Assembly: GCA_028716365.1 (NCBI GenBank)
Contig: JAQUPZ010000002.1
Span: 637,005 to 701,004, forward strand
Source: Kiritimatiellia bacterium
GTDB lineage: Bacteria; Verrucomicrobiota; Kiritimatiellia; UBA8416; YA12-FULL-48-11
DNA length: 64,000 bases
Direction of reading: 5' to 3'
Below are positions 457-19,941 of this stretch, one piece after another. Under the pieces are notes generated by a model. It made no database searches. It saw only the letters and a program-made list of their open reading frames with translations, and was not told the DNA's origin. How positions within the stretch are numbered: the stretch's first letter is position 1; each line of letters begins with the position of its first letter. Both the position numbers and the translations under genes were made by a program.

Positions 457-3400
457 TTACTCATTCCTGAGAGCACTGATCATCGATTGGCGCATGGCTA
501 TACGTACGGAAGAAATAATCCATAACAACTGGAACACTGCGATGCCGCTGATGAACAATGCCATTGTCATGTACGGAAGACGCACGCCCGGCGCATGAAA
601 ACTTGGCCACATTGCGGCAAGGGAAGACACAACACCAGTCATCAACCCCATGGCCAGTATCAACCAGTGTTCGGTCAGAACAACACGGCGTACATTTGCA
701 TCGGAATAACCAACAGCCTTAAACAATGCCAGTTCATTCCGCCTTTCAAGAATGTTTCGCAGAACAACAATCCCCATGCCGGCACTGCCCAGAAGCAAAC
801 CCAATCCACCGAGTACAAGAAACATCGCCATATATGTGGATTCAACAGAGTAGAATTCCTTCAACCTCTCAACAGTAGTGGAAATATTTACTCCAAATTT
901 TCCAAGCTTCCCGGCCAGAAGCTCCATCACATTACGTTCGGTTCCCCACGGAACATCAAACAGAAACATCCTGTATCCGTTTTCGGAAGGATACTTTGCT
1001 GTAAATGAGCCTGCAGGAATCAGAATCGAACCCTGGAAAACAGAAAGCCTCATCGGCAAAGAACCAACCAACTTTACTTTGAACAATTCGCCCCTTTCAT
1101 CACGGTAAGTCAGCGTGTCGCCTTTTTCCCTGCCAACTTTCTTTTTCAATCCCCACATTGCGGTGTTGGAATCACCCGCAAGCCCCGGTACAACTCCATC
1201 CGGCAATTGTTCCGCAAGTAATTTCCAGTTTTGTTCTCTATTGTCCGGCGCCATGAATGCTTTCCGCTTCACAAATTCCTGCGGATCAACGCCGATAAGT
1301 CGCGGTGACTGTGCACGGTTCAGATTCAAACAACTTGCATCATCACCATCACGGACCTTCAACGATACAATCTCAACATTTTTCAGGTCCTGTTCCCTTT
1401 CGAGTTTGACTTTTTTACGTCCTTCTACGCTGTTTAAATCCATCTGGATTGGAAAAGAAGATTCACCAAACAGTGCAAAACCACCAGTACCAGATGAACG
1501 CTTGACGGCATCAGCCCCGATATCCTCCTGCATGGAAGATACTGCAAAAACAAGGAAACATCCGCAGGCAAGGAGTCCGGTCACTGTCAGACTCCTTCCG
1601 CGGCGACGACCGGCATTACGTAAACCCAGTACAGTAACGGACAAACCACGGCACATCTGATCCAGCCGAACAAGGACTTCCCTGCTCAAGCCAAGAAATG
1701 CGATTAGAAACAGCGTTCCTGCCATAAAGAAAGTCTCAACGGCATTATGCATCCCGGTCATCGCAGAATACCCGATAATACCCAGCGCAATCGCAACACC
1801 GGCAAGAGATAGCATCCCCAACAGCCGTCCTTTGCCCGGTACAGATCCTGCCGGTTCGTAGGACTGCGAAAAATCGACTGTGAGCAGTTCACGCGCAGGT
1901 CTGACGGATTGTTTTCTTACGGCAATCACAAGGGAAAACATGGCACAGAGGAAACTCATGACGGCACCTTTTATCACCGTCACCGGTTCTGCATGATATT
2001 GAATAGCAGAATTCGCCACCGCTCCCTGCCAGTAGTTGCCCAGTCCCCAGATCAGCGCACGGGTATATAACGTCCCGAGAAAAGCGCCGGCAATTGAACC
2101 CACCACCGCCAGTAGACAACTTTCCTGCATCAGCAAATGTCGCACGTGTCCGGGCCGGTATCCAACAGCCAGCAGAATACCCATCTCCTCTGAACGTTGT
2201 TGTATCCCGAAGGCAAACAGTAATCCTGTCAGCATCAAGCCGGCAACGATCAGGAAAAAACTCATCCCGAGGAAAAGTTGTCCGAAATCCATTGCCTCAC
2301 CAGCCGCCTTGAGCGCCGCCTCACGAACTGGAGCGAAACTCAATCCGGTTTCTGCCGGATTAATGCGTTGACGCAGTGTTTCAACAATTAATTCTTTTCC
2401 ACAACGCGCCACCGGAAAACGTACAGAGGTCAGATTGCCGAACCGGTTGGACCACATTTCCTGTCCCGCTTTCAAAGTCACAAAAGCTTTCGGTGTTGCC
2501 CGATATGCCTTCCAGTAGGCTTCATTTGCCTTGTCCTCAACTTTGTCTTTTTCCAGCGGCATGCCGATGTCCCATTCTGTACATCGATCGGCGTCGGTCA
2601 AACCCGGAAACTTCGGGCCAAGATCCTTTTCATCCGCGATGTCACTCATCTCAAGAATATGGCGGACTTTGAAAGACCTGCTTTTTTCAATAAACTTGTT
2701 TGAAGGCGTGAGTTCATAATATGACACGGCAATAGTCTCACCTGTCCTGGCCGATAGACAATCGGCAAGCCAGCGGTTTAAAATTATTTCATCATCTGTC
2801 ATGTCCGGCGGCACAGGTCCAAGAGCACGGTCAGCAGAAGGAGCAAGCGCTGTTATAAATGAATATGGTGTCCTGCGGGAACCATCCCTGTCTTCCTTCG
2901 AAATAGAGTTCACAAGATATGTGAGCGTGCCAACCGGCTTCTCAATATTCAGCGCCGCACGCGTGATTGCCGGATCCATGAATATCCGCTCGCTCTCAAG
3001 TTGAAATAATCCCCTGCCTTCAAAATCCCGGAGGATGAGGCCGATATCTTCAATTCGCCAGACTTTCTTTATTACACCATTGAGTTTTTCAACAGTCAGA
3101 TCTTCCTTTCCTGCCGCAAGCAACAAATCAACCTTGTCTTCGAGAAAAACATTCTTCTGCAACCAACTCAGGTTCACAAACACATTACAAGGAACAATCT
3201 GATTGGCAGTAAGACTGAATCTGCCCAGTTCCCCGTCAGATACAATTTTTGCAATGGAAAACGTTCCGCGGACGGTGTCATCCCCTTTCCGGGAGGAAAG
3301 AGGTGCATCCCTGGAAAGTAACGAAGGTTTACCGATACGAATGGAGATTTCATCTCCGGTCTTGAGGCAAAGTTCAGCGGCAAGTTTCGCATTGACGGCA

Positions 3401-3804
3401 ATTTCATCTTCCGCAAACGTTACTACGGAGTTGCCGGATAAGCCCCAGAAACGCCTGTCAACACCAATGACCTGAATATTGTTTACCTGCCGGGATTTTT
3501 CATCAGTATTCTCCTGCCGTATCGCAATACCGCGCAGGAGTAATGCCGGAGCCACGAGAGTTTTGGCTTCTTTCTCCAAACGTTCTGCAAGATCCTGCCG
3601 GAAAAAACGACCCTGAGTGTTCAAGGCATAATGAACATTTCCAAGACGTAAAAGAGCGGACTTCATCAAACTGTACCTGACCGAATCTCCAACAAGCATG
3701 GCGCCAACAAGAACTGCGCCAGCGAGAATGATCCCGGCCAACACACTCAAATGGGTACGCCAGTAGAATAAAGCACTGCGGATACTCAGTCGTAGTCCTG
3801 TCAT
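457..3804 (-). CDS. Large FtsX/MacB-like ABC transporter permease
   Basis: 1115 aa; N-terminal TM plus two FtsX-like membrane blocks (GILLAVGYRPGHVRHLLMQE..., ELALFKAVGYSDANVRRVVLTEH...); 3 nt from the ATPase gene. Confidence 0.9.
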   Translation of the reverse strand: MTGLRLSIRSALFYWRTHLSVLAGIILAGAVLVGAMLVGDSVRYSLMKSALLRLGNVHYALNTQGRFFRQDLAERLEKEAKTLVAPALLLRGIAIRQENTDEKSRQVNNIQVIGVDRRFWGLSGNSVVTFAEDEIAVNAKLAAELCLKTGDEISIRIGKPSLLSRDAPLSSRKGDDTVRGTFSIAKIVSDGELGRFSLTANQIVPCNVFVNLSWLQKNVFLEDKVDLLLAAGKEDLTVEKLNGVIKKVWRIEDIGLILRDFEGRGLFQLESERIFMDPAITRAALNIEKPVGTLTYLVNSISKEDRDGSRRTPYSFITALAPSADRALGPVPPDMTDDEIILNRWLADCLSARTGETIAVSYYELTPSNKFIEKSRSFKVRHILEMSDIADEKDLGPKFPGLTDADRCTEWDIGMPLEKDKVEDKANEAYWKAYRATPKAFVTLKAGQEMWSNRFGNLTSVRFPVARCGKELIVETLRQRINPAETGLSFAPVREAALKAAGEAMDFGQLFLGMSFFLIVAGLMLTGLLFAFGIQQRSEEMGILLAVGYRPGHVRHLLMQESCLLAVVGSIAGAFLGTLYTRALIWGLGNYWQGAVANSAIQYHAEPVTVIKGAVMSFLCAMFSLVIAVRKQSVRPARELLTVDFSQSYEPAGSVPGKGRLLGMLSLAGVAIALGIIGYSAMTGMHNAVETFFMAGTLFLIAFLGLSREVLVRLDQMCRGLSVTVLGLRNAGRRRGRSLTVTGLLACGCFLVFAVSSMQEDIGADAVKRSSGTGGFALFGESSFPIQMDLNSVEGRKKVKLEREQDLKNVEIVSLKVRDGDDASCLNLNRAQSPRLIGVDPQEFVKRKAFMAPDNREQNWKLLAEQLPDGVVPGLAGDSNTAMWGLKKKVGREKGDTLTYRDERGELFKVKLVGSLPMRLSVFQGSILIPAGSFTAKYPSENGYRMFLFDVPWGTERNVMELLAGKLGKFGVNISTTVERLKEFYSVESTYMAMFLVLGGLGLLLGSAGMGIVVLRNILERRNELALFKAVGYSDANVRRVVLTEHWLILAMGLMTGVVSSLAAMWPSFHAPGVRLPYMTMALFISGIAVFQLLWIISSVRIAMRQSMISALRNE

Positions 3805-3807
3805 GTT

Positions 3808-4488
3808 TTACTTCCTGGAAACAAGCCTGCCGCCGGAAAGTTCATAAACCATATCCATACGGCCGGCCAGCAATAGTGAATGCGTGACCACTATCAACGT
3901 CAAACCATGCTGCTTGTTCATTTTCACCAGAAGATCAGCCAGTTTGTCTGCCCCAGCTATATCAAGTGAACCTGTCGGTTCATCGGCCACAAGAAGTTTT
4001 GGACCGTTGATCATGGCCCGGACAACGGCAACCCTTTGTCGCTCTCCACCGGATAATTGACCAGGCCGGTAATCAAGCCGCTCTGACAGTCCAACCTGTT
4101 CAAGCAGATCCCTGGCCCTCTGTTCGGCATTTGCTGCATGTTCGTTGACAAGCACAGGCACAAGCACGTTCTCGAGGACAGTACACTGCGGCAACAGATG
4201 ATGAAGCTGAAAGACAAACCCTATCTTCCTGTTACGAATGTCCGCTTGTTCCTTTTCGTTCAAGTTGAGAATATCCTGTCCATCGAACATGACTTTACCG
4301 CTTGTGGGCAGATCGAGTGTTCCAACGATGTTCAGGAGCGTACTCTTGCCCGATCCTGATGGGCCAACAATAGCCACCGACTGACCGTTCATCACCTGAA
4401 GATCGATGTCCTTGAGAACTTCCAATCCGCCGCCAGCAGACAGATATTTCTTCGAGATTTTTTCAAGTACTAACAATGGTGTCGTCAT
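3808..4488 (-). CDS. ABC transporter ATP-binding protein, LolD/MacB-like
   Basis: Walker A GPSGSGKSTLLN, signature LSGGERQRVAVVRA, Walker B LLVADEPTGSLD. Confidence 0.95.
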   Translation of the reverse strand: MTTPLLVLEKISKKYLSAGGGLEVLKDIDLQVMNGQSVAIVGPSGSGKSTLLNIVGTLDLPTSGKVMFDGQDILNLNEKEQADIRNRKIGFVFQLHHLLPQCTVLENVLVPVLVNEHAANAEQRARDLLEQVGLSERLDYRPGQLSGGERQRVAVVRAMINGPKLLVADEPTGSLDIAGADKLADLLVKMNKQHGLTLIVVTHSLLLAGRMDMVYELSGGRLVSRK

Positions 4489-4490
4489 AT

Positions 4491-5684
4491 TTATTTTCCC
4501 GCGCCATACATGATAATAAATCCATCGTCAGAGCCGATAACAACCTTACCGTCAATCACAGCCGGCGAGGAAATGGAATCACTCGCTTTGCCGGTCCACA
4601 GTTTTCTACCATCTTCAAGTTTCAGAATATAGAGCGTTCCTCCCGCTGAAACAACCACCTTGTCTCCTGCGACAACAGGCGACAAAGGGCTACCATCAAC
4701 CGTAAAACTCCATATTTTCTTTCCATCAGCCCGGTTGAGGCAAAAAACCGAATCATCACTTGAACCGAATACAACCCGGCTCTTCGTCACTGCAGGGGTT
4801 GTAAAAACCTCACTGTAACAAACTTGATTCGTCCATACGATGGTACCTTTCCTTGCATCCGCACAGACGGCCAATCCTCCACGGGTTCCGGCAAAAACCA
4901 GGTTGCCATCTATTGCCACACCGCCAGCCACCTGCCCGTCACCTTCAAGTTCCACCCGCCCGATTGATTCTCCTCTGGCCGACGACAAAACATGCAATGC
5001 AGCATCACAACTGCCAAAAACAATAAAATCCTTACCAACACCCGGCGAACCATCACAACGTGACACCGCCTGCGATACCCATATCGGCTTACCAGTTTCA
5101 AGATCAAGACAATGAACGATTCCATCGGCCTGGGAAATAACGATAACGCTCAATCCACGCCCACTTTCCGGTTCAATCCAGTTTGCTGTACCGTTTATAT
5201 TTTCACCAACCTGGTATTTCCACTTCGTTTTACCTGTGTCCGCTTCCAGGGCATGAAGATTTCCCTGGTCCGATCCAACAAGCAATATGCCACGAACATA
5301 CATCGGCTGCGTTGAGAATTTCTCGACATGTTGTGTTACGTTGGTTTTTGCCGATTCCTGACGTATAGCCGCCACCCAGATTTTTTCACCCTGCATGCTT
5401 ATGGCAAATGTCTCCCCATTTTCTGCTATGAAGAATATCCTGTTGGTACCCACCACTGGCGTAACCGTTACCGGCGCTCCAACCTTGAACCGCCACAGAA
5501 CGGAAAGTTTCTCAGACAAAGTAGTTCCTGCAATTCCGCGCAGGGCGGCATCACCATGATAGACCGGCCAGAACTGCAGAGCATTTGTTCCTGTTGTATT
5601 GCCCTGTTCCGCAGTCCACCCATTGAACTGGCTGTACGTAAACATAACAACGGTCAATGCAGTAATTCTTAACCTTTTAAACAT
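4491..5684 (-). CDS. PQQ-like beta-propeller repeat protein, probably exported
   Basis: Repeated 'LEADTGKTKWKYQVG / LDLETGKPIWVSQ / ADGKKIWSF' blades; hydrophobic N-terminus. Confidence 0.9.
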   Translation of the reverse strand: MFKRLRITALTVVMFTYSQFNGWTAEQGNTTGTNALQFWPVYHGDAALRGIAGTTLSEKLSVLWRFKVGAPVTVTPVVGTNRIFFIAENGETFAISMQGEKIWVAAIRQESAKTNVTQHVEKFSTQPMYVRGILLVGSDQGNLHALEADTGKTKWKYQVGENINGTANWIEPESGRGLSVIVISQADGIVHCLDLETGKPIWVSQAVSRCDGSPGVGKDFIVFGSCDAALHVLSSARGESIGRVELEGDGQVAGGVAIDGNLVFAGTRGGLAVCADARKGTIVWTNQVCYSEVFTTPAVTKSRVVFGSSDDSVFCLNRADGKKIWSFTVDGSPLSPVVAGDKVVVSAGGTLYILKLEDGRKLWTGKASDSISSPAVIDGKVVIGSDDGFIIMYGAGK

Positions 5685-6961
5685 TTGCGATAAACCTCCA
5701 GCATACTTGCTGCAGTTTTCTTTACACTGAAATTTTCAAGGACGACCTTCCGTCCGGATTGTCCCATGCTACGGATACATTCCGGATCAAGAAGCAGACT
5801 TTCAAGTGTCTTCGCAAGCGTCACCGCATCATTTGGTTCATAACAGATACCGCCGCCTGTAGCTTCAACTATTTCTGGAAATGCGCCCACTTTTGGTTGA
5901 ACTACCGGTACACCACACGCCAATGCCTCCACAATGTACATTCCGAATGCCTCGGGATGCGGTACAGGTACAGACATTACAGATAGAGTCCTGATAAACT
6001 CAATACGACTGTTTCGGTCAAATTCCGACAAGAACTCAACATCATCGCCCATGTTTTTTGAAGCCAATTTCCGTCGTAAATGCCGAAGGAAAGGCCGGTC
6101 CTCGGGCGTTTGTCCGCCCAATACCTTCAACTTGAGATTCTTCAGCCGGTCATTGTCTTTTAATATAATGAAAGCGTCCACCATGACCCCCAACCCGAGC
6201 GACTCCGTCATGTTCGAAAGGTAACCGATGACCGGTCGTTCGGATGACAACCTTGCTTCCCCATAACCCTCGATGTTGATTCCTATCGGCACAACATGGA
6301 AACGTTCGGGGCCAAGTTTCAATCTCTTTTGCATCAGGTCGCTGTAATAATTACTCACCGGTACAAAGGCTGAAATATCTGAAGATTTCTCCGCCATGAG
6401 ATCCCAAGCCTTGCGTGCGGCATCCGGCTCCATGGAATCAATCCATGCATCTTCATCCTGCAGAGTGCAGACAACAGGTACCCCAAGTTCATTCTTGATT
6501 CGTCCTGCCAGTCCAAGAAGAAGAGCATTAGAGAGATGTACAACGTCAGGTTTTCCTTCTTGAACCAACCATGACACCAAACGACCCAGCTCTTTTTTTT
6601 GTCCCCCGTTTTCACCTTTCAAAATCGACAGGGTCATTTCTTCAAGACCGCTCGCACGCGTGGTTCCTGATTTTTGCGCAATCCAGCCAAGAAGTCTGCG
6701 TGAATCGATAAGACGCTTCAACCATTGCGGTGCATTGGACAAGGATGGGAAATACTGTGAAAGATATACGCCTACGGCTCCATAAAAAACCGGCACATCA
6801 GTTCCAATATCTTCACCCTCTGAAAAAACCGGCAGATACATGGGCGCAAGGATGACATCATGGCCAAGCAGCCGCAGTTCCATGACAAGTTCCCTGTCGC
6901 GCATGCAATTCTGACAATAATAGGTATCACCTGTACCGGGAATTATTTGAACAATCTTCAT
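5669..6961 (-). CDS. Glycosyltransferase (GT4-like)
   Basis: Rossmann-type N-terminus MKIVQIIPGTGDTYYCQNCMRDRELVMELRLLGHDV; C-terminal EALACGVPVVQPKVGAFPEIVE motif. Confidence 0.88.
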   Translation of the reverse strand: MKIVQIIPGTGDTYYCQNCMRDRELVMELRLLGHDVILAPMYLPVFSEGEDIGTDVPVFYGAVGVYLSQYFPSLSNAPQWLKRLIDSRRLLGWIAQKSGTTRASGLEEMTLSILKGENGGQKKELGRLVSWLVQEGKPDVVHLSNALLLGLAGRIKNELGVPVVCTLQDEDAWIDSMEPDAARKAWDLMAEKSSDISAFVPVSNYYSDLMQKRLKLGPERFHVVPIGINIEGYGEARLSSERPVIGYLSNMTESLGLGVMVDAFIILKDNDRLKNLKLKVLGGQTPEDRPFLRHLRRKLASKNMGDDVEFLSEFDRNSRIEFIRTLSVMSVPVPHPEAFGMYIVEALACGVPVVQPKVGAFPEIVEATGGGICYEPNDAVTLAKTLESLLLDPECIRSMGQSGRKVVLENFSVKKTAASMLEVYRKCLKG

Positions 6962-6970
6962 TGAATTTCT

Positions 6971-8539
6971 TCAGGCATTTTTAAATGCCAGCGCACCAGT
7001 CGGACACTGTTTCACACATTCCTCGGCTGTACTTTGCAAACCTGCGCCAAGCGGTTCATTGAATGGTATATCAACAACAGATTCAAAGCCGCGCCCTTTG
7101 AATGCAAGCCCCAGTTTTTCATGGGCATGCTCGGTAATCCTGACACAGATTCCGCACTTGATACATTTTCCTGGTTCAAAAATAACGCTGGTATGAGTCG
7201 TAATTCTCTGGAAACTTTTCCGGCCTTCCACGTTGAAATGCTTTTGACTTGCCGCGTATCGATCCGTGAAATCCCTTAACTTACACGCTTCCGCTTTTCG
7301 ACAATCGCAATGCATACATCGTTTACTTTCCCTGATTGCTTCTTCAGCCGAAAATCCGGCGAGAGCACCGCCCGCCGGTTCTATACCGGCTGATACATCC
7401 ACATCTTTCATAAGTTCGTATATTTCCGCTTCCTGCAGTTTTCCCATGCGCGATTCGAATCGTCTCACAAGACCAGTCACCTTCTGTCCACCGAGATACT
7501 GATCAATTGAAACTGCCATTGTCTTCCCGTGAGCAACAGCCCTTACCGCAAGATGGCCCGGGTGAACAGCTTCACCTCCTGCAAATATTTTTTCATCGGA
7601 TGTCCTGAGTAAATGTGGATCAACTTTTATTCCATGTGCATCGGAATCAATACCCCACAATGAATCAGGCTGAGGTTCCGTCTTCCCAGGCGAAAGAATA
7701 ATAGCATCGTATTCTTTCTTCAGTTGATCCATGCTCACATCATTACCAACACGGCACTTCACCCTGAACATCGCGCCGAGTTTCCTGATAACATCTATTT
7801 CCTTGTCCAGGACCGCTCGTGGAAGAATATTTTCCGGCACCCCGTAACGAAGTTGACCGCCCGGTTCGGGGTGGTCATCAAGAATTGTGCAGGCATGTCC
7901 TGTCTGTACAAGGTAGTAAGCGGCGGAAAGACCGGCAGGCCCTGCCCCGACAATCGCCACCTTCTTTCCCGATGCTTTTCTGCAAACAGGCATGTATGGT
8001 GACTTTTCGGAAAGGTCTTCGTCGGCAGCAAAACGCTTCAGGAGACATATGGCAAGAGAAGCGTCATAACGTGAACGGCGGCACGCCTTTTCGCATGGTT
8101 CCGGACAAATCCGCCCGAGAACTGCCGGCAAGGCAATATCTTCCTTTACCGTCTCAATCGCTTCCTTCATTTTCCCTGCTGCAATCTGGCGAATCATTAA
8201 CGGAATATTCATATGTGCAGGACAGGTTATCCGGCATGGGGCCTCGCAATCTCCAACATGTTCGCTTAGCAGCAGATCGAGGGCATTCTTCCGCTGGTGA
8301 TGGACTTCCTCGCTATCCGTTTCCACAATCATGCCGTCAGCGGCAGGCGCACTGCAGGACGGCAGAAACCTGCCGGATGTCTGCTCCTTTACGACACAAA
8401 TCATGCAGGATGTGAAAAGCGCATATCCCTTCAGATAACACATGGTCGGTATGTCTATGCCAATACTCCGGGCGGCATCGAGTAAAGTTGTTCCTCTTTC
8501 AACAACAACATTCCTGCCGTTTATTTTCAGTTGCGGCAT
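6971..8539 (-). CDS. NuoG/HydA-like [2Fe-2S]/His-Cys3 N-terminus fused to a GltD/NfnB-like FAD protein with C-terminal Fe-S motifs
   Basis: N-terminal ferredoxin cysteines (CYLKGYALFTSCMICVV...C), HVGDCEAPCRITCPAHMNIP, FAD motif VAIVGAGPAGLSAAYYL, EPGGQLRYGVPE, DEKIFAGGEAV, C-terminal CIKCGICVRI...CVKQCPTGAL. Confidence 0.9.
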   Translation of the reverse strand: MPQLKINGRNVVVERGTTLLDAARSIGIDIPTMCYLKGYALFTSCMICVVKEQTSGRFLPSCSAPAADGMIVETDSEEVHHQRKNALDLLLSEHVGDCEAPCRITCPAHMNIPLMIRQIAAGKMKEAIETVKEDIALPAVLGRICPEPCEKACRRSRYDASLAICLLKRFAADEDLSEKSPYMPVCRKASGKKVAIVGAGPAGLSAAYYLVQTGHACTILDDHPEPGGQLRYGVPENILPRAVLDKEIDVIRKLGAMFRVKCRVGNDVSMDQLKKEYDAIILSPGKTEPQPDSLWGIDSDAHGIKVDPHLLRTSDEKIFAGGEAVHPGHLAVRAVAHGKTMAVSIDQYLGGQKVTGLVRRFESRMGKLQEAEIYELMKDVDVSAGIEPAGGALAGFSAEEAIRESKRCMHCDCRKAEACKLRDFTDRYAASQKHFNVEGRKSFQRITTHTSVIFEPGKCIKCGICVRITEHAHEKLGLAFKGRGFESVVDIPFNEPLGAGLQSTAEECVKQCPTGALAFKNA

Positions 8540-10941
8540 TCTATATCAACTCCTGTTTTAGTGTGTCGGATTTTAACGGCTCCCGACGGGCATACCTGCC
8601 TGCAAGTGTCACATTTTGTACATTTTTCATGCTGGATCTCGTGTTCCTGGTATGGCATCAATTCTATGGCATCTGCGGGACATGCCTGTGCACACCGCGT
8701 ACATCCAATACAGTCATCATTGATGTGGTACGAAATGAGAGCTCTGCATTTGCCTGCAGGACACCATCCTTCTATGTGTGCCTCATATTCCTCTCGAAAA
8801 TGCTTTATCGTCGATAACACAGGATTAGGCGCAGTCCTGCCGAGTCCGCATAAACTGCCTGACTTTGTGGTATGTCCGAGATGTTCAAGCCTTTCGATAT
8901 CACCTTTTTCACCCTTACCCTCACATAACCGCTCCAAAATCTCGAGCATTCGCTTTGTTCCTATCCGGCAATAGGTACATTTGCCACAGGATTCCCTTTG
9001 CGTGAAAGTCATGAAATACCGTGCAATATCTACCATGCAGTCGGACTCATCAAGAACGACCATTCCGCCTGATCCCATGATGCATCCGGCCGCCTCCAAA
9101 GTTTCATAATCTACCATGGTATCAGCCAACTTCGCCGGAATACATCCGCCGGAAGGTCCTCCGATCTGTACAGCCTTGAACATTTTCCCACCGGACGTCC
9201 CGCCACCGATCTCCTGAACAATTTCCCTGACGGTAATTCCCATTGGTACTTCAATCAACCCGCCGCGCACAACTTTTCCTGCCAGTGAAAAAACCTTGGT
9301 ACCTTTACTGGTGGACGTTCCCATCGACGAAAGTGCTTCAGCTCCATTCCTGATAATCCAGGGAACTATGGCAAAAGTTTCCACGTTATTAATATTAGTA
9401 GGTTGTCCCCATAATCCGCTTTCAGCGGGATATGGCGGACGAAAACGAGGCATACTACGCCGGCCTTCAATGGCGGCCAGTAATGCAGTTTCTTCGCCAC
9501 TCACAAATGCACCCGCGCCTTCAACAATTTTCAGTTTCAAACCGAAACCACCTCCGAAAATATTTTCACCAAGGTAACCCCTGGTTTCCATCGTGGACAT
9601 GGCAGAACGAATTCTCTGCAGGGCAAGCGGATATTCGGCACGGATATACAGGAAACCTTCTTTTGCTCCTATCGCATAAGCCGCTATGACCATTCCTTCA
9701 AGAACCCGGTAAGGAAATGATTCCAGCAGCATCCTGTCCATAAATGCGCCTGGATCACCTTCATCACCGTTACAAACAATGTATTTTGGAGTGCCTGAAG
9801 CTTTACGTACCATTGTCCATTTTTTCCCTGTCGGAAAACCTGCGCCACCGCGTCCGCGCAAACCGGACTGAATGATGGTATTAACCACATCATCCGGTCT
9901 GCTGTCCTTGATACATTTCTTCAGAGCCGTGAAACCGCCATCCGTAATATATTCATCGATATTCAGGGGATCAAGGCTTCCACACCACTCACTCGCAATC
10001 CTTTTTTGCCTGCCAAGGAACGAACACACCGGTGCATCCCTCACATCAAGGGCATAACGGTCGACAGGCTCCCATGTCTCATCTGTCAGTAATTGTTCAA
10101 GCATTACAGACGCATTGGTCCTGATTTGCCTCAACAATCCCTTTGATTTAAAATGCCGCCTTACGATTTGTGCCGCATCCTCCGCCTTGACTTTTGCATA
10201 TGTGACAGGTTCACCACCTGCCGCAACTATCTGGACAAGCGGTGTCTGGTGGCACATACCCACACAGCCGACAGGTTTGATGACAGCAGCTGCGCCGGTC
10301 TTCCTTACTTCATCTTCAAGCTGTTCACGGACATTCAAACTTCCACCGGCAACACAGCAGGAGCCCACACCTATCCGGATCTCTGCAAGTTTTTCGGTAG
10401 TTGATTCAGATTTGCCATGCCGGCGCGGTACTACGCGCCGCTTCTCAAGTTCCAGGAAATCCCGGATTGCGCGTGGCACTGTGTCAGGCGTCAAGTGTCC
10501 GTATGTCACTCCATCAATTTTAATGACCGGCGCCAGCGTACAACACCCAAGACATGCAACTTTCTCAAGAGTAAATACACCATCAGCATCGGTATCGTCC
10601 CCCTCCTTGATTTTTAAATGCCGCATCAAGACATCCTGGATCAATTCCGATCCTTTAACATGACAAGCGGTACCGTGACAAACGCTGATCAAGTGACGGC
10701 CCGTGGGACGGTGCCGGAATTGTGAATAAAAAGTGGAAACGCCGGTTATTGATGCAGGCGTGATTTCCGTTAACTCACATACACGGCGTAACGCAACTTC
10801 CGGCAAATACCTGTAATGCCGCTGAAGTTTCTGCAGTATGGGAATGACCGCTGACGGAGAACGACCGAATTCCGCCACAGCAGCATCAACAATACCAAGG
10901 TCAATCTTCTCAACCTTTTTTATTTCAGTTGTGTCACCCAT
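8527..10941 (-). CDS. Fused NuoE-like + thioredoxin-like [2Fe-2S] + NuoF-like + 2x[4Fe-4S] ferredoxin protein (HndA/HndC-type NAD(P) module)
   Basis: CHGTACHVKG...CLGCC (NuoE-like), CC...CVGMC (thioredoxin-like), GLRGRGGAGFPTGKKW and CNGDEGDPGAFMDR (NuoF FMN/NAD site), ESCGKCTYCRIG, CIGCTRCAQACP, CTKCDTCRQVCP. Confidence 0.95.
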   Translation of the reverse strand: MGDTTEIKKVEKIDLGIVDAAVAEFGRSPSAVIPILQKLQRHYRYLPEVALRRVCELTEITPASITGVSTFYSQFRHRPTGRHLISVCHGTACHVKGSELIQDVLMRHLKIKEGDDTDADGVFTLEKVACLGCCTLAPVIKIDGVTYGHLTPDTVPRAIRDFLELEKRRVVPRRHGKSESTTEKLAEIRIGVGSCCVAGGSLNVREQLEDEVRKTGAAAVIKPVGCVGMCHQTPLVQIVAAGGEPVTYAKVKAEDAAQIVRRHFKSKGLLRQIRTNASVMLEQLLTDETWEPVDRYALDVRDAPVCSFLGRQKRIASEWCGSLDPLNIDEYITDGGFTALKKCIKDSRPDDVVNTIIQSGLRGRGGAGFPTGKKWTMVRKASGTPKYIVCNGDEGDPGAFMDRMLLESFPYRVLEGMVIAAYAIGAKEGFLYIRAEYPLALQRIRSAMSTMETRGYLGENIFGGGFGLKLKIVEGAGAFVSGEETALLAAIEGRRSMPRFRPPYPAESGLWGQPTNINNVETFAIVPWIIRNGAEALSSMGTSTSKGTKVFSLAGKVVRGGLIEVPMGITVREIVQEIGGGTSGGKMFKAVQIGGPSGGCIPAKLADTMVDYETLEAAGCIMGSGGMVVLDESDCMVDIARYFMTFTQRESCGKCTYCRIGTKRMLEILERLCEGKGEKGDIERLEHLGHTTKSGSLCGLGRTAPNPVLSTIKHFREEYEAHIEGWCPAGKCRALISYHINDDCIGCTRCAQACPADAIELMPYQEHEIQHEKCTKCDTCRQVCPSGAVKIRHTKTGVDIECRN

Positions 10942-11016
10942 GAAATCTCATCCTTGCCGACAATCTCAATTCTTTAGCTTAATATCAGACACCTGACTTC
11001 CGACGTCTGTTCCCTT

Positions 11017-12810
11017 TCATTTGTTTCCTATACAAAATAGATTGGTTGCTCCCCGCATAATGATCCGTCCATCCACAAAAGCAGGAGAACAATCACTTGG
11101 TTCACCAAGACTGGTCTTGCCAATTTCTTCATACTTGCGGCCAGCCCTGACAATGAATACCTCACCATTACGGGTTACCAAATAAAGCCGATCACCGGCC
11201 AAACCGGGTGATGCATAAAATTCACCATCCAGACTTTTGTCCCAGATTATTTTTCCACTGGCGACCTCAATACAGGTCAGCGTTCCGCCTGAATGTGCAA
11301 AGAAAACCAGTTCCCCATTACTGACGGGGGAAGAAACATCGGCTACACCGTCTTCCGACCGCCAAACCACATGACTTTTGGTGACATCACCCTGCCCATC
11401 CGGTCGTATTGCATAAACCTGTTCTGCTGCGATGGATGCGATAACTAATCCGCCGGCATAAATAGGTGATGGAGTAACCTCGCTACCGGCACATTTGACT
11501 TTCCATAACTCCTTACCGGCAACAGGATCGTAAGCGATGATCCATTCGTTAGCCATGGAGATAAGTTGTGCACCCTTCCCCGTCTGCGCCACAATCGGCG
11601 AAGGCCAGGAGTCGGCAACCGGCCTTGTAATACTCCACGCCTTTTTTCCCGTGGCAGCATCCAAAGCAATCATCTCAGAAACCTTGCCATCCGCATCGAC
11701 ACTGTCATACTGGACAATGATCTTGCCCTTATGAATCGCAAGCGAAGCAGAATAACCATATGTATTGTTACATAATCCCATGTCGACATCCCATATTTTC
11801 TTCGAACAGAAATCTATTGCAGTAATATCACCATTGGCAAAGATCGCATAAACGTTTACACCATCCGTCACGGGCGTCGGTGCAGCATAACCGGCATCCT
11901 TACTGACTTGCGGAACTTTGTTCGTATTGCCCGGCGCCGCGTCAACCCTCGCTGTCCAAAGCAAAGTTCCATTGGCAATATCATAACAATATACTTCACG
12001 TTTTGTTTCAGAAGCACCAGTCAGAAAAACCCGGTTACCCCATACTACCGGAGAACTCATTCCTGAAAGCGGCACTTTGACTTTCCATATTATCCCCCTG
12101 CCGCTTTTTACATCCCATGACACTGGCATATTGGTGAAAGCACTGACTCCATTACCCAATGGGCCACGAAAACCCGGCCAGTTTTTTAAAACTTCCGCGG
12201 CATCCGGACTTGCCGTCACAGGTTGAGCTGGTGAAACAGTAGTCGAAACCATTTGTCCAGATACAGGCATGGTGACAGGCTGGGCAGTTTTTATCGGCAC
12301 TCCATTTGACGGGACAACAGCTTCCAATCCGGACCGTTCCATAATACCAATGACAACGGCACCGGTAATGAGCGCAACCCACATACCGGCGATCACCCAT
12401 CTGGCAGTTGCCGCCGACTGGAGCATATCAGGACTGGCTGGATATTCGCGTGGATTTGGCAGTCTGCGCCTGAGACTTGCCATTGTTTTCAAACTAACCA
12501 GCATAATTATTACTCCACCCAACAGTAGAAAACTGCCGGTGCGAAGTGATGTGAGACCTGTAAAATAAAACCTTCGCGAAACCAAATCCAGATCCCTGAT
12601 TTTATTTCTTAAGATTTCGTCGGTGGGATTTTCCTTCAATACCGCACGCAACTGATCAATCTCCGGCATGTCCAAAGGTGATGAAGTTCTCACTGCCATA
12701 AGACTGGACACCATAAGCATACCAACGAGAAGTGAAAATACGCACGATACCACCGCCATCGCATACGTAATTCGATAAGACAATTTTACCGATTTTTCAT
12801 CAACAATCAT
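11017..12810 (-). CDS. Membrane-anchored PQQ-like beta-propeller protein
   Basis: Start moved from 12933 to ATG at 12810 (MIVDEKSVKLSYRI), preceded by GGAGGG; N-terminal TM segments, then 'NWPGFRGPLGNGVSAFTNMPVSWD' and propeller blades. Confidence 0.88.
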   Translation of the reverse strand: MIVDEKSVKLSYRITYAMAVVSCVFSLLVGMLMVSSLMAVRTSSPLDMPEIDQLRAVLKENPTDEILRNKIRDLDLVSRRFYFTGLTSLRTGSFLLLGGVIIMLVSLKTMASLRRRLPNPREYPASPDMLQSAATARWVIAGMWVALITGAVVIGIMERSGLEAVVPSNGVPIKTAQPVTMPVSGQMVSTTVSPAQPVTASPDAAEVLKNWPGFRGPLGNGVSAFTNMPVSWDVKSGRGIIWKVKVPLSGMSSPVVWGNRVFLTGASETKREVYCYDIANGTLLWTARVDAAPGNTNKVPQVSKDAGYAAPTPVTDGVNVYAIFANGDITAIDFCSKKIWDVDMGLCNNTYGYSASLAIHKGKIIVQYDSVDADGKVSEMIALDAATGKKAWSITRPVADSWPSPIVAQTGKGAQLISMANEWIIAYDPVAGKELWKVKCAGSEVTPSPIYAGGLVIASIAAEQVYAIRPDGQGDVTKSHVVWRSEDGVADVSSPVSNGELVFFAHSGGTLTCIEVASGKIIWDKSLDGEFYASPGLAGDRLYLVTRNGEVFIVRAGRKYEEIGKTSLGEPSDCSPAFVDGRIIMRGATNLFCIGNK

Positions 12811-12823
12811 TACACCCTCCTGC

Positions 12824-14107
12824 TTAACAATTAACCTGGTTAAGTTTCTTAATCCTCTGGTGTTCTTTCGGACAGGACATGAAACATCTTGCACAACTAA
12901 GGCATGCGCCCCTGTCCGGCTCGTAGGAATCACGGGTCCTTTTTATTGAAACTCCGATCAGACTGCAGCCGAAAACCACGCCAAGAAACCCGCCCATGAA
13001 CCAGCCTCCCTTCCGGAATTTATTCCGCAAGGTATGAGCTTGCACATAAAGATCTTCCTTTTTCATCCCGCTTCCATCAAACGCTTCTTTTTCAAATACC
13101 ATCAGTTTTAATTCTGACTGATCGTTTTGTTGTATTGCCTCGGCCAACCGCACCGTTGGATTTTCCCTGGCCAGCACAACATCAAGCCGTGAACCGGCCC
13201 ATCCACCGCCTATCGCAAGAAAAGGAAGAAGAATTAAAAGCATGATCAACCGATGCACACCTGAAATACGCGGTTCCGCAACCTGATTTATATTGGGTAT
13301 CTGAATGGCATCAAACGGACACGATTTCTCGCACAACCGGCATTTAACACATTCGTCTGGTGTGATGGTAGCGTGCCACTTTGAAAGTTTTGACATCCAG
13401 TTCAACAAAACACTGAAAGGACATAAGAAACGACAGTACGGTCTTGCAACAAAAATTCCAATCAGTAACAGCACAATACCTGTCATAAGGATGGGTAATT
13501 TGCCACTGAGCCTGAATATGGGAACAAATGGATCAAGACGGCAGATGACAAATGCTGTACCAGTGGCCGCAAACAGAGCACCGAGTCCAAGGTATACATA
13601 AGGAATCAATTTGAGTATCTGTGCCAAACAGGAAGGTACTTTGACGGGGAAAAGAATCATTAAATCCTGTATGGTTCCCAGCGGACATACGGCTGCACAG
13701 AACACCCTTCCGAACAACAATGCAAAAACCAGCGGAAGAATAAAATAGGCTGCGGCAGATAACGGCAGTACATATTGATTATCAAAAAGCCATAATGTCA
13801 CATTTTGAATGGCCCCAATGGAACAAATACATCCCTTTTTCCAGAAACCGAAATAAATCACTGAGAATATCGTCAGGAGAAAGACACCCCTTCGCGAACG
13901 TTTCTTCAACACCAGCCATGTGGCCAGGGAGAGTGCGGCTAACAGGACGACCACATCCACGCTTTCCAACAGTATCGACCTTGGACCAGGCGCCGTGGTT
14001 TCCGGCAGAGTATAACCTTTTTCAAACTGGGGTTTGGGAAACCGGTTTTCGGCAAAACATGTCAGTGTCGAAACCAGCAAAAAAAGCATGACAAGTATTT
14101 TTCTCAT
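12824..14107 (-). CDS. NapH/NosR/CcoG-like polytopic 4Fe-4S membrane protein
   Basis: Signal/TM segments; FCAAVCPLGTIQDL, YCRFLCPFSVLLNWMSK, CVKCRLCEKSCPFDAIQIP, C-terminal CLSCARCFMSCP. Confidence 0.88.
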   Translation of the reverse strand: MRKILVMLFLLVSTLTCFAENRFPKPQFEKGYTLPETTAPGPRSILLESVDVVVLLAALSLATWLVLKKRSRRGVFLLTIFSVIYFGFWKKGCICSIGAIQNVTLWLFDNQYVLPLSAAAYFILPLVFALLFGRVFCAAVCPLGTIQDLMILFPVKVPSCLAQILKLIPYVYLGLGALFAATGTAFVICRLDPFVPIFRLSGKLPILMTGIVLLLIGIFVARPYCRFLCPFSVLLNWMSKLSKWHATITPDECVKCRLCEKSCPFDAIQIPNINQVAEPRISGVHRLIMLLILLPFLAIGGGWAGSRLDVVLARENPTVRLAEAIQQNDQSELKLMVFEKEAFDGSGMKKEDLYVQAHTLRNKFRKGGWFMGGFLGVVFGCSLIGVSIKRTRDSYEPDRGACLSCARCFMSCPKEHQRIKKLNQVNC

Positions 14108-14823: not shown

Positions 14824-14824
14824 A

Positions 14825-15805: not shown

Positions 15806-15830
15806 TCCACACCCCTCAACATTAACAGTT

Positions 15831-17264
15831 TTATTTCTGTGCCCTAAGATCAAGACAAGTCATCTTCCCGTAGTCCCTGACAAGCAAACGACCATCCGCG
15901 AGAGCCATGGGCGCCCATGACTCCTTGCCATCAAGTACTTTTGCCTGTGCCAGCTTGAAATATCCCTGTTCGGTAGCCTTGATCATTTTCAGCAGGCCGT
16001 TATCTTCCAGAATAAACATCTTGTTGTCGGCGATCATGAAAGGTCCAAGACCAAACCGTTCTGTGGAACCACTGGCCCAGATTACTTTACCCCCGGGATC
16101 CATGCAAACCGCCTGCTTCCGTACAGAACCCGCATCTGCAGGCAAAACAGAGTAAAGATAACCTTTGTAGAAAATCGGAGTATGCTGTTCGCAGGCAAAC
16201 GTCTTTTTCTCCCATCGGTACAACTGTTTGACAACAAACTTTCCTGATTCCAAGGAAACTTTAAACATGGCACTGCCAACTCCATATCCGGCCGTGATAA
16301 AAACTCTTCCATCACCAAGAGAAACCGGAGCCGGAGCCATCACCTGGTGGTTCCATTCGCCAGTTTCCCAGAGAATGGTCCCGCGATCCGTTTTCTCCGC
16401 TGAGATACCAACCATGCCGCCAATCGCGCAATAGACATACATTTTCTTCCCGCTCAATTCCATCGGCATCACTGATGAATGAGACATCTGCCACTTCTTC
16501 GGATTGGGAGTCTGCCATAAGACCTTGCCCGTCTTGCAGTCTACTCCCATCAAAAGGGCCTTACCGCCAACACCCAGGACGACCTCCTCACCGTCTATCA
16601 AAGGACACTGCCCTGTGTACCACATTGGAACTGCTGTACCCCATTCTTTCTCAAGATCAATTCCCCACCGGAAATCACCTGTCCTGGAATCCACACACAT
16701 GACATGACAACGCGGACCGATTGTGACCACATAATTTTCCGTAACAGCCGGAACTGTACGCGACATACCGTGATTACGTTTGATATGAACTTTGTACCAG
16801 CGTCGCCAGATTTCTTTTCCATCATCCATCGAAAAACAACGAAGCGCATCGGCATTTTCTCTGCTGTCGTAGTCCAACACATAAACACATCCGTTCAAAA
16901 CCGCCGGTCCGGCATAACCTTCCCCAAGCTCGACAGACCAAAGCACAGGCGGACCAGACACGGGCCAGGTATCAGCCAGTTTCACCGGTTCCACAGCAAT
17001 GTTGTCATAATTTACGCCACGGAAACGGGGCCAAGCGCTGTTATTCTTCGAAGGAACACCCTCTAATTTTTTGAAACTTTCGCCTATTTGAACAGTCTTT
17101 TCGATCGTTTCAGATTTCTTTGTAAATTCCGCAAGTTCACCTGGAAGAGCCAGACGTTTCCTGATCGACGGATCATCCGTCGTTTCACGCCACCACGAAA
17201 GTAAAATGGCAGCCAGAACAACTCCCGTAAAAAGAACAATCATTACAGGAATGTGTTGTTTCAT
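15831..17264 (-). CDS. PQQ-like beta-propeller repeat protein with N-terminal TM anchor
   Basis: N-terminal IPVMIVLFTGVVLAAILLSWW; 'AWPRFRGVNYDNIAVEPVKLADTWP'; propeller blades. Confidence 0.9.
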   Translation of the reverse strand: MKQHIPVMIVLFTGVVLAAILLSWWRETTDDPSIRKRLALPGELAEFTKKSETIEKTVQIGESFKKLEGVPSKNNSAWPRFRGVNYDNIAVEPVKLADTWPVSGPPVLWSVELGEGYAGPAVLNGCVYVLDYDSRENADALRCFSMDDGKEIWRRWYKVHIKRNHGMSRTVPAVTENYVVTIGPRCHVMCVDSRTGDFRWGIDLEKEWGTAVPMWYTGQCPLIDGEEVVLGVGGKALLMGVDCKTGKVLWQTPNPKKWQMSHSSVMPMELSGKKMYVYCAIGGMVGISAEKTDRGTILWETGEWNHQVMAPAPVSLGDGRVFITAGYGVGSAMFKVSLESGKFVVKQLYRWEKKTFACEQHTPIFYKGYLYSVLPADAGSVRKQAVCMDPGGKVIWASGSTERFGLGPFMIADNKMFILEDNGLLKMIKATEQGYFKLAQAKVLDGKESWAPMALADGRLLVRDYGKMTCLDLRAQK

Positions 17265-17316
17265 TCGATGTCCTGCTCAAGGTCCGTTACGAATCGTTAC
17301 ATTCTAATTCCTGTCG

Positions 17317-18525
17317 CTATTTACTGACATCAACAGCAACAAGGTCACCTTTATTGTTACGGCAGAATATTGTACCCCGGCAAAAGACCGGAGCAGTCCA
17401 GCAGGTCTTTGTCAATACGCCTTTGGCAGACGCAAGTTCTCCATAATTATCCGGTACAGCTTTTGCAATGAAAAGATCCCCACTTTCGTTCAGCATTATG
17501 ATCTTGTCTCCTGCAACTGTCATACCGCCAAACCCAAGATTCTGCGCCCACTTCTCTTTGCCGGTGGTGGGATCAAGGCATTTTAATGTTCCCTTGCCTG
17601 TATTTCCATCGATTCCATACAGATCACCATTAAAAAGAACGCAGCTGCTGAAATGGTTCCGCATCGCCTTATTTTCCCAGACAATCTTCGGTTCTGTACC
17701 ACTGATATCTATGAGCGCACATCCCCTGTTATATCCGGAAGATATGAATATTTTCCCACTAACAGGCACCGGATCTGCGGCATTTACGTCATAGCTGGTT
17801 TTCCAATCAACGAACGCCCGTTGCTTGCCGGTTCTGGCTTCCACCACGCAGAGACCTTTGCTGCTGAAAAGCGCGACACAGTCCATGGCACCTTTTTTAA
17901 AAACAACGGGTGTTGAATATCCACCCTTACCTCCACTACTCCAGATTTTTGTCCCGGTTTTGCGATCAAATGCAACTCCTCCTTCGCCGGCATTCATCAG
18001 CAACATATCATTGTAGATAACAGGCGATCCGGCAATTCCCCACTCGATATTTTCGCCACCGCCATCCCTCAGAATATTTTTCTCCCATATCACCTTACCG
18101 TCATCAATATTCAGGCAGAACAGATCTCCGTTACGGCTCAACGAATAAACCGCCTTACCGTCGGTTGTTGGAGTCGTCCTTGGACCGGAATGATTACCAG
18201 GATCACAGGGATAAGAGTGGCGCCATATTTCCTTACCTTCCTTTACGCTAACGGCATAAACAATATCCTTATTATTGACATTGCCCATCGTGAACAGCTT
18301 GTCGCCGCAGATTGAAACACTTGACCATCCATTTCCCACATTGATTTTCCATGTTATCTTCGGCCCTGCGGAGAGAGACTTGGGATTCAAGACATTTTCT
18401 CTGGAAATACCATCGCGATCAGGTCCGCGGAACTGAGGCCAATCAAAATTATCCGCGGCCCTTATTCCATTCACAACAAAGAGGCACATTATCATTCCAA
18501 CTGTAATTTCATTTCTTGAACGCAT
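17317..18525 (-). CDS. PQQ-like beta-propeller repeat protein, exported
   Basis: Signal peptide; 'FDWPQFRGPDRDGISRENVL'; 'GPRTTPTTDGKAVYSLSRNGDLFCLN'. Confidence 0.92.
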   Translation of the reverse strand: MRSRNEITVGMIMCLFVVNGIRAADNFDWPQFRGPDRDGISRENVLNPKSLSAGPKITWKINVGNGWSSVSICGDKLFTMGNVNNKDIVYAVSVKEGKEIWRHSYPCDPGNHSGPRTTPTTDGKAVYSLSRNGDLFCLNIDDGKVIWEKNILRDGGGENIEWGIAGSPVIYNDMLLMNAGEGGVAFDRKTGTKIWSSGGKGGYSTPVVFKKGAMDCVALFSSKGLCVVEARTGKQRAFVDWKTSYDVNAADPVPVSGKIFISSGYNRGCALIDISGTEPKIVWENKAMRNHFSSCVLFNGDLYGIDGNTGKGTLKCLDPTTGKEKWAQNLGFGGMTVAGDKIIMLNESGDLFIAKAVPDNYGELASAKGVLTKTCWTAPVFCRGTIFCRNNKGDLVAVDVSK

Positions 18526-18684
18526 TTAATACCCCCATGATTCCTGATGCATATATAACAAACAGCGATAATCCAAGATGCGGACAATAAGTTATACAGG
18601 GCAACGTAATTGAGCAATAAAATACGATGATGGATGATTCCTGAAATTACTCTCAGTATATTCTGGCAGACAAGAATACCAGCA

Positions 18685-19941
18685 TTACTTGCCACTCACA
18701 TTATAACAGAGTAACACGTCCTGGTCTCGAATATAGAGCTTCCCATTAACGATCACCGGGTGTGTCCAGCTGTTTTTGGTACTACGATCAGGCTGGTTGA
18801 ACCGCCCTTTCTCGACATATTCTTTTGAGTTTGCTTCGATGAGAGCAATTGATCCGGGACCAGATTCACTGCGGATATAGAAATGACCATCGGCATAGGC
18901 TATTGATCCTTTACCAACACCCTTGTGCGTCCATGCAACCTGACCAGTCTTGAAATCCATGCAAACCCAGCCTCCCTTATTGGAATGGCCATAGACAAAA
19001 CCGTTCAGAAGGATTACACCACCATGATGGTTTTCCATGAACTTGTTGGTGTAAATTTCTTCAACCTTGAATTCTGAAGCATCCTTGGAAACCTTAAAGG
19101 CGTTACATCCGATGCCATAACCGGAAGTCACATAAACCTGGTTGTCAGCATAAATTGGCGTCGGAACAACAGCAACCTTACCCGGACGATTACCGCGCCA
19201 GAGAACTTTCCCGCTGGCCACGTCTATTCCCACAACACTTGCCGCTGTCAACTGGATAACCTGTCGAACGCCGAAAATGGTCTCAAGAATAAGTGATGAA
19301 TAATGGGCAGGGTCTGTGAAACTTCCAGTTTGCCAAACTGCTTCACCGGTTTTCTTGTTAAGCGCAATTATTGCTCCTTTGCTTCCTCCTGGAGTCGCAA
19401 AAACTTTATCACCGTCTACGAGCGGTGATTCAGCATAGCCCCAACTCGGTGTACGCCCGCCAAAATCCTTGGTCAGGCTTTTTCGCCAGATTTCCCTGCC
19501 TGTGGCAGATTCAACACACACCAGATCACCGTGTTGATTAAGCGCGTAAACAAGATCACCATCAACCGTCGGTGTACCTCGCGGGCCAATGTAACCACCA
19601 TATGCACCGACAGCTCCCATCTTGGCAGACCAGAGTTTCTTGCCGGTGGATTCATCAAGTGCTATCAACTGACTTGCATTATCTACATCACCCATCGTGA
19701 AAATCTTCCCCTTCACGACGGAAAAACCGGAATATCCTGCTCCCAACCCGGTAATTTTCCATGTCAGAGACGGGCCTTCAGCGGGCCACTGCTTAAGCAA
19801 ACCGGTTTCTCTGGATATATCGTCGCGATTCGCTCCACGCCATTGCGGCCAGTCGAAACCTTTTGCTGTCTGCCCATCACCTGCAACAATAAGACCGAAC
19901 ACCAATCCAAAAACAATTACCATCTTCGTCCTTAAGTACAT
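18685..19941 (-). CDS. PQQ-like beta-propeller repeat protein, exported
   Basis: Signal peptide; 'FDWPQWRGANRDDISRETGLLKQWPAEGP'; 'GPRGTPTVDGDLVYALNQHGDLVCVE'. Confidence 0.92.
   Translation of the reverse strand: MYLRTKMVIVFGLVFGLIVAGDGQTAKGFDWPQWRGANRDDISRETGLLKQWPAEGPSLTWKITGLGAGYSGFSVVKGKIFTMGDVDNASQLIALDESTGKKLWSAKMGAVGAYGGYIGPRGTPTVDGDLVYALNQHGDLVCVESATGREIWRKSLTKDFGGRTPSWGYAESPLVDGDKVFATPGGSKGAIIALNKKTGEAVWQTGSFTDPAHYSSLILETIFGVRQVIQLTAASVVGIDVASGKVLWRGNRPGKVAVVPTPIYADNQVYVTSGYGIGCNAFKVSKDASEFKVEEIYTNKFMENHHGGVILLNGFVYGHSNKGGWVCMDFKTGQVAWTHKGVGKGSIAYADGHFYIRSESGPGSIALIEANSKEYVEKGRFNQPDRSTKNSWTHPVIVNGKLYIRDQDVLLCYNVSGK

Follow-up and report, generated by a model that had tools for sequence, protein, structure and literature searches.

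A putative Bfu-type bifurcating complex encoded with membrane and exported iron-sulfur proteins and propellers in uncultured bacteria

Introduction

In the Bfu family of electron-bifurcating enzymes, no function has been assigned to 17 BfuB clades, and undiscovered third substrates have been predicted (Schut et al. 2022, PMC9304861). Here we describe a thirteen-gene operon of a Kiritimatiellia bacterium whose products appear to include a Bfu-type core, made of a NuoEF fusion protein and a flavoprotein that we call FLAV, along with a NapH-like membrane iron-sulfur (Fe-S) protein, a NapG-like exported polyferredoxin, and several propeller proteins. The operon lies within a window of 64,000 nucleotides, the whole stretch of DNA that was analyzed, which is positions 637005-701004 of contig 2 (JAQUPZ010000002.1) in a 5.8-Mb assembly of 55 contigs that is 92% complete (GCA_028716365.1).

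The closest characterized enzymes are of the Stn/NfnABC type (Sporomusa ovata StnABC, 8oh5; Caldicellulosiruptor NfnABC, 9bov; Thermococcus sibiricus NfnABC, 9n5u), which share with the operon a BfuBC core with all of its clusters and a BfuA layout of 2Fe-2S, GltD-type 4Fe-4S, FAD, and C-terminal ferredoxin parts, and which include the nearest characterized BfuB in our tree. In contrast to these enzymes, the operon encodes BfuB and BfuC as a single polypeptide, a FLAV protein without the NADP(H) domain of StnC and without the StnC C-terminal part beyond approximately residue 675, and additional NapH/NapG, propeller, ABC transporter, and GT4 proteins. Nuo-Bfu and Mbh-Bfu, which are predicted membrane-bound Bfu systems (PMC9304861), likewise have BfuABC genes in an operon with membrane subunits, but the operon described here lacks NuoAHJKLMN and group 4 hydrogenase subunits and has a NapH-like protein and an exported polyferredoxin as its membrane part. 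Conduits of the NapGH/NosR/PceC type (PMC8238504) also pair a Fer4_5 membrane protein carrying 4Fe-4S motifs with an exported polyferredoxin, whereas in the operon proteins we found no FMN-binding domain, the operon encodes no NapA, NosZ, or RdhA, and a Bfu complex is predicted as the electron donor in place of quinol. Finally, Rnf (ferredoxin:NAD+ oxidoreductase) likewise links NAD(H) to ferredoxin as a membrane enzyme, but no Rnf subunit is found in the operon.

We found no report of this operon in the open-access literature, including searches that combined NapH, NuoF, and propeller or PQQ-like, NapG, and bifurcation. The cytoplasmic part is already known as Bfu; what is new is the third partner, consisting of the NapH-like protein, the Tat polyferredoxin, and anchored propellers, and often accompanied by a GT4/LolD/FtsX module. 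The operon appears to be an undescribed route by which fermenting bacteria could pass electrons to or from the periplasm, and there is a substantial chance that it is a physiologically new route of electron export. The BfuB proteins of these operons define a clade whose predicted third partner is consistently a chain of Fe-S proteins in the membrane and periplasm.

The NuoEF fusion resembles the bifurcating core of Bfu enzymes

An initial annotation made from the DNA letters and open reading frames (ORFs) had proposed that the redox module was of an undescribed kind. Our analysis does not bear this out, as the module falls in the Bfu family by both sequence and cofactor ligands. In the BfuC part at the N terminus of NuoEF, PF01257 matched with an E value of 4e-50, and its four Cys residues were kept in 60 of 61 aligned NuoEF members. 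In the BfuB part, PF01512, PF10589, and PF14697/PF00037 all scored above cut-off, and full-length BfuB matches had E values below 1e-180; the SLBB match was weak (24.0 bits against a cut-off of 27). The BfuBC core of NuoEF is complete, with an FMN domain and ligands for clusters C1 and B1 to B5.

Cluster B2 is a pentacoordinate [2Fe-2S] cluster that is ligated by C438, C476, H525, C531, and C536 in A. mobile HydB, and non-bifurcating homologues lack the B2 His (PMC9304861). In our alignment, these residues corresponded to C635, C673, H722, C727, and C732 of NuoEF. All 61 members conserved C635, H722, C727, and C732, and position 673 was occupied by Cys in 53 of them and by Thr in 6. Clusters B1, B3, and B4 also had invariant ligands. 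As a negative control, the Hox-type NuoF of the host had D, I, L, S, and M at the corresponding positions and lacked a B2 site. This NuoF belongs to a Hox-type NAD-reducing [NiFe]-hydrogenase cluster with HypF on contig 14 (L056:8149-16019). Two more NuoF proteins of the host are fused to GltD-type domains (C17:33050-37210 and C10:66782-69756; frames of 1065 and 1092 aa), and one of them adjoins an [FeFe]-hydrogenase (L002, L030, L034, L001, L033).

In a tree of 40 sequences, for which four PDB sequences were transcribed from printed alignments and may contain small gaps, the operon BfuB proteins formed a single clade with support of 100/100 beside StnB and C. saccharolyticus NfnB. Together, these sequence comparisons make it highly probable that NuoEF and FLAV form a Bfu-type (HydABC/Stn-type) core. 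Because NuoEF is placed in the Bfu family as a sister of Stn/NfnABC, it should couple both NAD(H) and ferredoxin. The initial annotation had overlooked the coupling to ferredoxin.

FLAV is a BfuA-like protein without the NADP(H) domain

FLAV consists of an N-terminal 2Fe-2S domain, a GltD-type 4Fe-4S domain, an FAD domain, and C-terminal ferredoxin clusters, and it contained the Fer2_4 and Fer4_20 domains and C-terminal Cys motifs of BfuA. Residues 4 to ~310 of FLAV aligned with residues 6 to ~311 of StnC, and residues ~276/298-519 aligned with residues ~425/445-673. Between these two blocks, approximately 130 residues of S. ovata StnC (~312-440) and of the C. saccharolyticus homologue were unmatched. 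NCBIfam matches of the GltD type ended near residue 290 of FLAV, and the second GltD-type nucleotide motif was found in none of 97 FLAV homologues. An AlphaFold2 model of FLAV, with a predicted local distance difference test (pLDDT) score of 91, matched StnC over its whole length in Foldseek (TMq 0.86; 678 columns for 522 residues). The alignment, NCBIfam matches, and motif scan thus leave the earlier GltD-type assignment half right: the FAD half of GltD is present and the NAD(P)H-binding domain is missing.

FLAV does not represent a second NAD(P)H dehydrogenase, since it has lost the pyridine-nucleotide site, and the missing domain also rules out glutamate synthase and an NADP-dependent transhydrogenase of the Stn type. 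Full-length FLAV is present in a single copy in the host genome.

The FAD domain, which the window protein retains, was also gone in eight relatives with the same type of operon, in which the protein is mostly approximately 350 aa long. The tree requires two changes to explain this loss, but the second of these depends on a long branch (L054), and support is weak at several forks. That the FAD is dispensable in these relatives agrees with the FAD of StnC being reported as non-bifurcating (PMC10482914). Loss of the NADP site and then of the FAD fits a BfuA protein that would exchange its electrons elsewhere, and the FAD of FLAV may be a relay or relic at most. This series of losses can be viewed as a natural experiment supporting bifurcation at the FMN-FeS site rather than at the FAD. 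In one relative (L010; G014:C49:4204-5748), the FLAV match contained one in-frame TGA, which could lie at the edge of the match, and a 520-aa ORF spanned most of it.

The gene set is conserved across bacterial phyla

FLAV or its shorter form occurred in 19 genomes among the host and 57 relatives, and neighborhoods were read in 18 relatives. In a wider scan with the FLAV alignment as query and one genome per GTDB species, we found at least 550 relatives. Synteny counts were made on the 80 best FLAV loci, restricted to those with flanks long enough, using a simple ORF caller, to which fragmentary genes and a few unusual lengths in the neighborhood tables are due. By the taxon names in their metagenome-assembled genome (MAG) records, these 80 loci were mainly from Planctomycetota (37), Bacteroidota (14), Aminicenantes (6), and KSB1 (4), with further loci in Kiritimatiellota, Armatimonadota, Poribacteria, Calditrichota, Acidobacteriota, Myxococcota, Chlorobiota, and others. 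The gene set thus spans at least eight bacterial phyla, and all loci seen are from uncultured MAGs.

The usual order on long contigs was PQQ477, NHL, NapG, NapH, mPQQ, NuoEF, and FLAV, followed by PQQ397 and GT4, LolD, and FtsX. Upstream of FLAV we found NuoEF in 61 of 65 loci, mPQQ in 51 of 54, NapH in 47 of 49, NapG in 43 of 47, NHL in 42 of 44, and PQQ477 in 34 of 41, almost always on the same strand as FLAV, and all seven core genes occurred in the usual order in 36 of the 80 loci. Pairwise divergences were also correlated (FLAV-NuoEF, r = 0.85; FLAV-NapH, 0.88; NuoEF-NapH, 0.87; NapH-mPQQ, 0.87), which fits inheritance of the genes as a unit. The co-occurrence of the propeller and Fe-S genes outside this genome, on which the initial annotation had staked its proposal, was clear both in the relatives and in the GTDB loci, and the recurrence of one gene order across many phyla supports a co-conserved gene set rather than chance.

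In Thermoguttaceae and other planctomycete MAGs, FLAV also occurred as an orphan (L094, L104, L110, and L112), with the rest of the operon absent from the fetched DNA. Among unmatched neighbors of 16 loci, no recurrent terminal enzyme was found save for a radical-SAM/prenyl gene set in Phycisphaerae. There, a run of genes of similar lengths lies downstream of PQQ402/PQQ418 (L082, L089, L099, and L111), which in L082 and L089 we read by eye as encoding an Fe-S protein, a radical-SAM-like protein, a polyprenyl-synthase fusion, and prenyltransferase-repeat proteins.

Membrane, exported, and propeller proteins

The NapH-like protein contains two four-Cys 4Fe-4S motifs (C253-C263 and C402-C412) along with CxxxCP motifs, and the charges flanking both 4Fe-4S motifs would place them in the cytoplasm. 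The NapG-like protein has a Tat-type RRxF motif in 48 of 56 members and 16 conserved Cys residues in four four-Cys motifs, enough for four 4Fe-4S clusters. Their earlier comparison with NapG and NapH holds as a family-level resemblance and no further, as the scores did not reach the cut-offs of curated NapH families (36.4 bits against 213 for NCBIfam napH and 33 against 234 for PRK09477). In Pfam searches of the operon proteins, we detected no NapA, no FMN_bind or ApbE, and no recognizable terminal oxidoreductase, the last of these as previously proposed. The cytochrome c motif CxxCH was absent from the Fe-S and propeller proteins except in 2 of 59 NapH members.

NHL342 had no Pfam match, and a PDB profile search found NHL propellers; it carries an invariant CCNP vicinal-cysteine motif (C266, C267, N268, and P269). 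PQQ477 had the largest set of conserved polar residues among the propellers, with a mean column identity of 51% and 35 near-invariant polar, Cys, or Trp positions, making it the best candidate for a periplasmic partner. The propeller of mPQQ was lost in two relatives (L039/L040), in which the protein is reduced to its transmembrane part. The start of mPQQ is very probably Met41 (~12813), because homologues align from about residues 42-69, and with this start the 110-nt overlap with the NapH gene vanishes. None of the propellers was a good match to quinoprotein dehydrogenase families, with best matches instead to BamB/ACSF4-type propeller domains and a weak, partial match to PF01011, and on this ground we rejected a chain of PQQ dehydrogenases. 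PqqC had no match in the 57 relatives, but had none in control genomes either.

These domain assignments and the conserved gene order support the earlier proposal that an NAD(H)/Fe-S module in the cytoplasm is accompanied by a chain of membrane and exported Fe-S proteins and by propellers in the periplasm. The Tat-type NapG and anchored propellers imply that the far end of this chain lies outside the cytoplasm.

A model for electron transfer and its alternatives

We propose a model in which BfuBC would couple NADH and reduced ferredoxin into one mid-potential electron stream (confurcation), and BfuA (FLAV) would hand these electrons to the cytoplasmic clusters of NapH instead of to NADP+. The electrons would then cross the membrane through NapH to the exported NapG, which might pass them to an acceptor in the periplasm that the NHL and PQQ-like propellers, PQQ477 foremost, would bind or process. 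GT4, LolD, and FtsX probably build or export an envelope component needed by the system. Homology and the conserved ligands support the steps within BfuBC, and gene linkage suggests the BfuA-NapH link, the membrane crossing, and the acceptor. Taken as a whole, we consider this membrane-associated Bfu complex with outward electron flow somewhat probable from the sequence data. A more specific form, a cytochrome-free, often quinone-independent transmembrane confurcating system that wires electrons of NADH and ferredoxin to a propeller-presented acceptor in the periplasm or at the cell surface, is a tentative proposal with a less than even chance of being correct. The operon could explain how surplus low-potential electrons are handled in uncultured fermenters, some of them apparently quinone-less, and, if the model is true, this extracytosolic route of electron disposal would be common to many uncultured fermenting phyla.

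Several observations weigh against this model. The NapH and NapG scores are far under the curated family cut-offs, and the direction of the reaction, which could run in reverse, is not fixed by sequence. As no unlinked gene served as a control, common ancestry could account for part of the divergence correlations; those for LolD were low (0.13-0.49), probably due to paralogue picking. FLAV occurs without NuoEF in L094, L104, and L110, and NuoEF and FLAV occur without NapGH in L103. Lastly, the absence of quinones was judged from two marker families, MqnA/D and MenB.

These two markers bear on whether NapH might instead connect to a menaquinone pool, so that the operon would encode a small NADH/ferredoxin:quinone oxidoreductase with NapG and the propellers as accessories. 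In nitrate reductase, NapH is the putative subunit for quinone binding (PMC8238504), and 7 of the 19 operon-bearing genomes of the class had a menaquinone marker. However, both MqnA/D and MenB were lacking above cut-off in the other 12, including the host, and 9 of these 12 genomes are at least 90% complete, so that quinone is probably not an obligate partner. An exported polyferredoxin and propellers would also be superfluous in such an enzyme, yet they are among the most constant neighbors of FLAV. We thus regard a quinone-linked enzyme as quite unlikely, and an obligate quinone reductase is weakened as a candidate by the same missing markers. The operon also did not behave as a substitute for Rnf, complex I, or [FeFe]-hydrogenase, as we observed no mutual exclusion over the 57 relatives. 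RnfC_N was absent from the host genome and present besides the operon in 16 of the 19 genomes, indicating that the operon is not an Rnf replacement there.

In place of the outward flow of our model, electrons might flow inward, with the propellers oxidizing a periplasmic donor and NapG and NapH feeding mid-potential electrons to BfuABC, which would bifurcate them to NAD+ and ferredoxin. Bfu enzymes are reversible (PMC9304861), NapH-like proteins have been reported with both reductases and oxidases (PMC8238504), and the conserved polar set of PQQ477 is enzyme-like. Bifurcation to ferredoxin, however, needs a donor near -400 mV, and no gene for such a periplasmic oxidoreductase lies within or beside the operon. 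The potentials of PQQ-type chemistry are much too positive for this purpose. Inward flow therefore seems unlikely to us.

The genes of the GT4/LolD/FtsX module, which our model assigns to an envelope component, were found downstream of FLAV in 23-25 of 53-60 loci, and an FtsX gene was within the fetched flanks of 35 of the 80 loci. In many Planctomycetota loci, the fetched DNA began with an FtsX fragment immediately upstream of PQQ477, and in 7 of 10 Planctomycetota genomes searched, comparison of coordinates placed a GT4 homologue ~2.7-3.0 kb further upstream. This co-conservation of GT4/LolD/FtsX in two arrangements, the invariant vicinal CC of NHL342, and the BamB-like fold of PQQ477 are consistent with a role in envelope maturation or repair, in which low-potential electrons would reduce thiols or metal centers of exported proteins, such as the CCNP cysteine pair of NHL342, with LolD/FtsX/GT4 as part of the machinery. 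An NADH- and ferredoxin-coupled Bfu core is nonetheless typical of energy metabolism (PMC9304861), and many loci that keep NapGH-Bfu lack the ABC/GT module or have it elsewhere. We consider such a role very improbable.

Gene layout and neighboring genes

The thirteen ORFs of the operon are all on the minus strand of the window between positions 457 and 19941 (Table 1). They are present as the initial annotation described them, and the ATGA at 14104-14107 and the overlaps of 13 nt (8527-8539) and 16 nt (5669-5684) follow from the ORF coordinates; of the two gaps flanking the ABC gene, both given as 3 nt, one is 3 nt and the other is 2 nt. Apart from the qualifications for GltD and NapG/H, Pfam and NCBIfam searches confirmed the domain calls: PQQ_2/BamB-type propellers, Fer4 in the polyferredoxin, Fer4_5 in the NapH-like protein, 2Fe-2S_thioredx, Complex1_51K, NADH_4Fe-4S, and Fer4 in NuoEF, Fer2, Fer4_20, and an FAD Rossmann domain in FLAV, and GT4, ABC_tran, and FtsX in the others. 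Scans for promoters and terminators performed no better than on shuffled sequence.

Table 1. Coordinates of operon genes and selected parts of their products in the window
Feature	Position	Strand	Basis or remark
Large FtsX/LolCE-type permease, 1115 aa	457-3804	-	FtsX; weak ADOP/LolCE
LolD-type ABC ATPase	3808-4488	-	ABC_tran; co-located
PQQ397 propeller, probably secreted	4491-5684	-	PF13360/PF13570; co-located
GT4 glycosyltransferase-like protein	5669-6961	-	Glycos_transf_1
FLAV, BfuA-like Fe-S flavoprotein, 522 aa	6971-8539	-	Pfam/NCBIfam; StnC alignment; AlphaFold2/Foldseek
FAD domain of FLAV, aa about 190-345	7505-7972	-	Between GltD-type 4Fe-4S and C-terminal ferredoxin clusters
NuoEF fusion, 804 aa	8527-10941	-	BfuC fused to BfuB; predicted FMN/NAD(H)/ferredoxin bifurcating core
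BfuB part of NuoEF, aa 185-795	8557-10389	-	PDB matches NfnB, StnB, and HydB at E<1e-190
Codons of B2 [2Fe-2S] site (C635, C673, H722, C727, C732)	8746-9039	-	Alignment to HydB
BfuC part of NuoEF, aa 1-165	10447-10941	-	Best PDB relatives NfnC/StnA
mPQQ, 638 aa, three transmembrane segments and C-terminal PQQ_2 propeller	11017-12933	-	PF13360; transmembrane prediction
NapH-like Fe-S protein with multiple transmembrane segments, 427 aa	12824-14107	-	Fer4_5; hydropathy; conserved Cys
NapG-like Tat-exported polyferredoxin, 239 aa	14104-14823	-	Fer4 matches; RRxF-type motif; conserved Cys
NHL342, membrane-anchored NHL-type propeller, 342 aa	14825-15853	-	PDB profile search; one transmembrane segment
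PQQ477, membrane-anchored propeller	15831-17264	-	AlphaFold2 pLDDT 90; BamB-like fold
PQQ402 propeller, probably secreted	17317-18525	-	PF13360; downstream of FLAV in 19/68 loci
PQQ418 propeller, probably secreted	18685-19941	-	PF13360; linked up- or downstream in many loci

Near its N terminus, the GT4 protein carries a YCxNCxRD motif (Y15, C16, N18, C19, R21, and D22) that is almost invariant and may mark a distinct GT4 subfamily. Directly upstream of the operon and on the same strand, we observed two LarA (lactate racemase-like) genes (window positions 19996-21255 and 26212-27498), which are accompanied by a ceramidase-like gene, an MFS transporter, and TIM-barrel genes.

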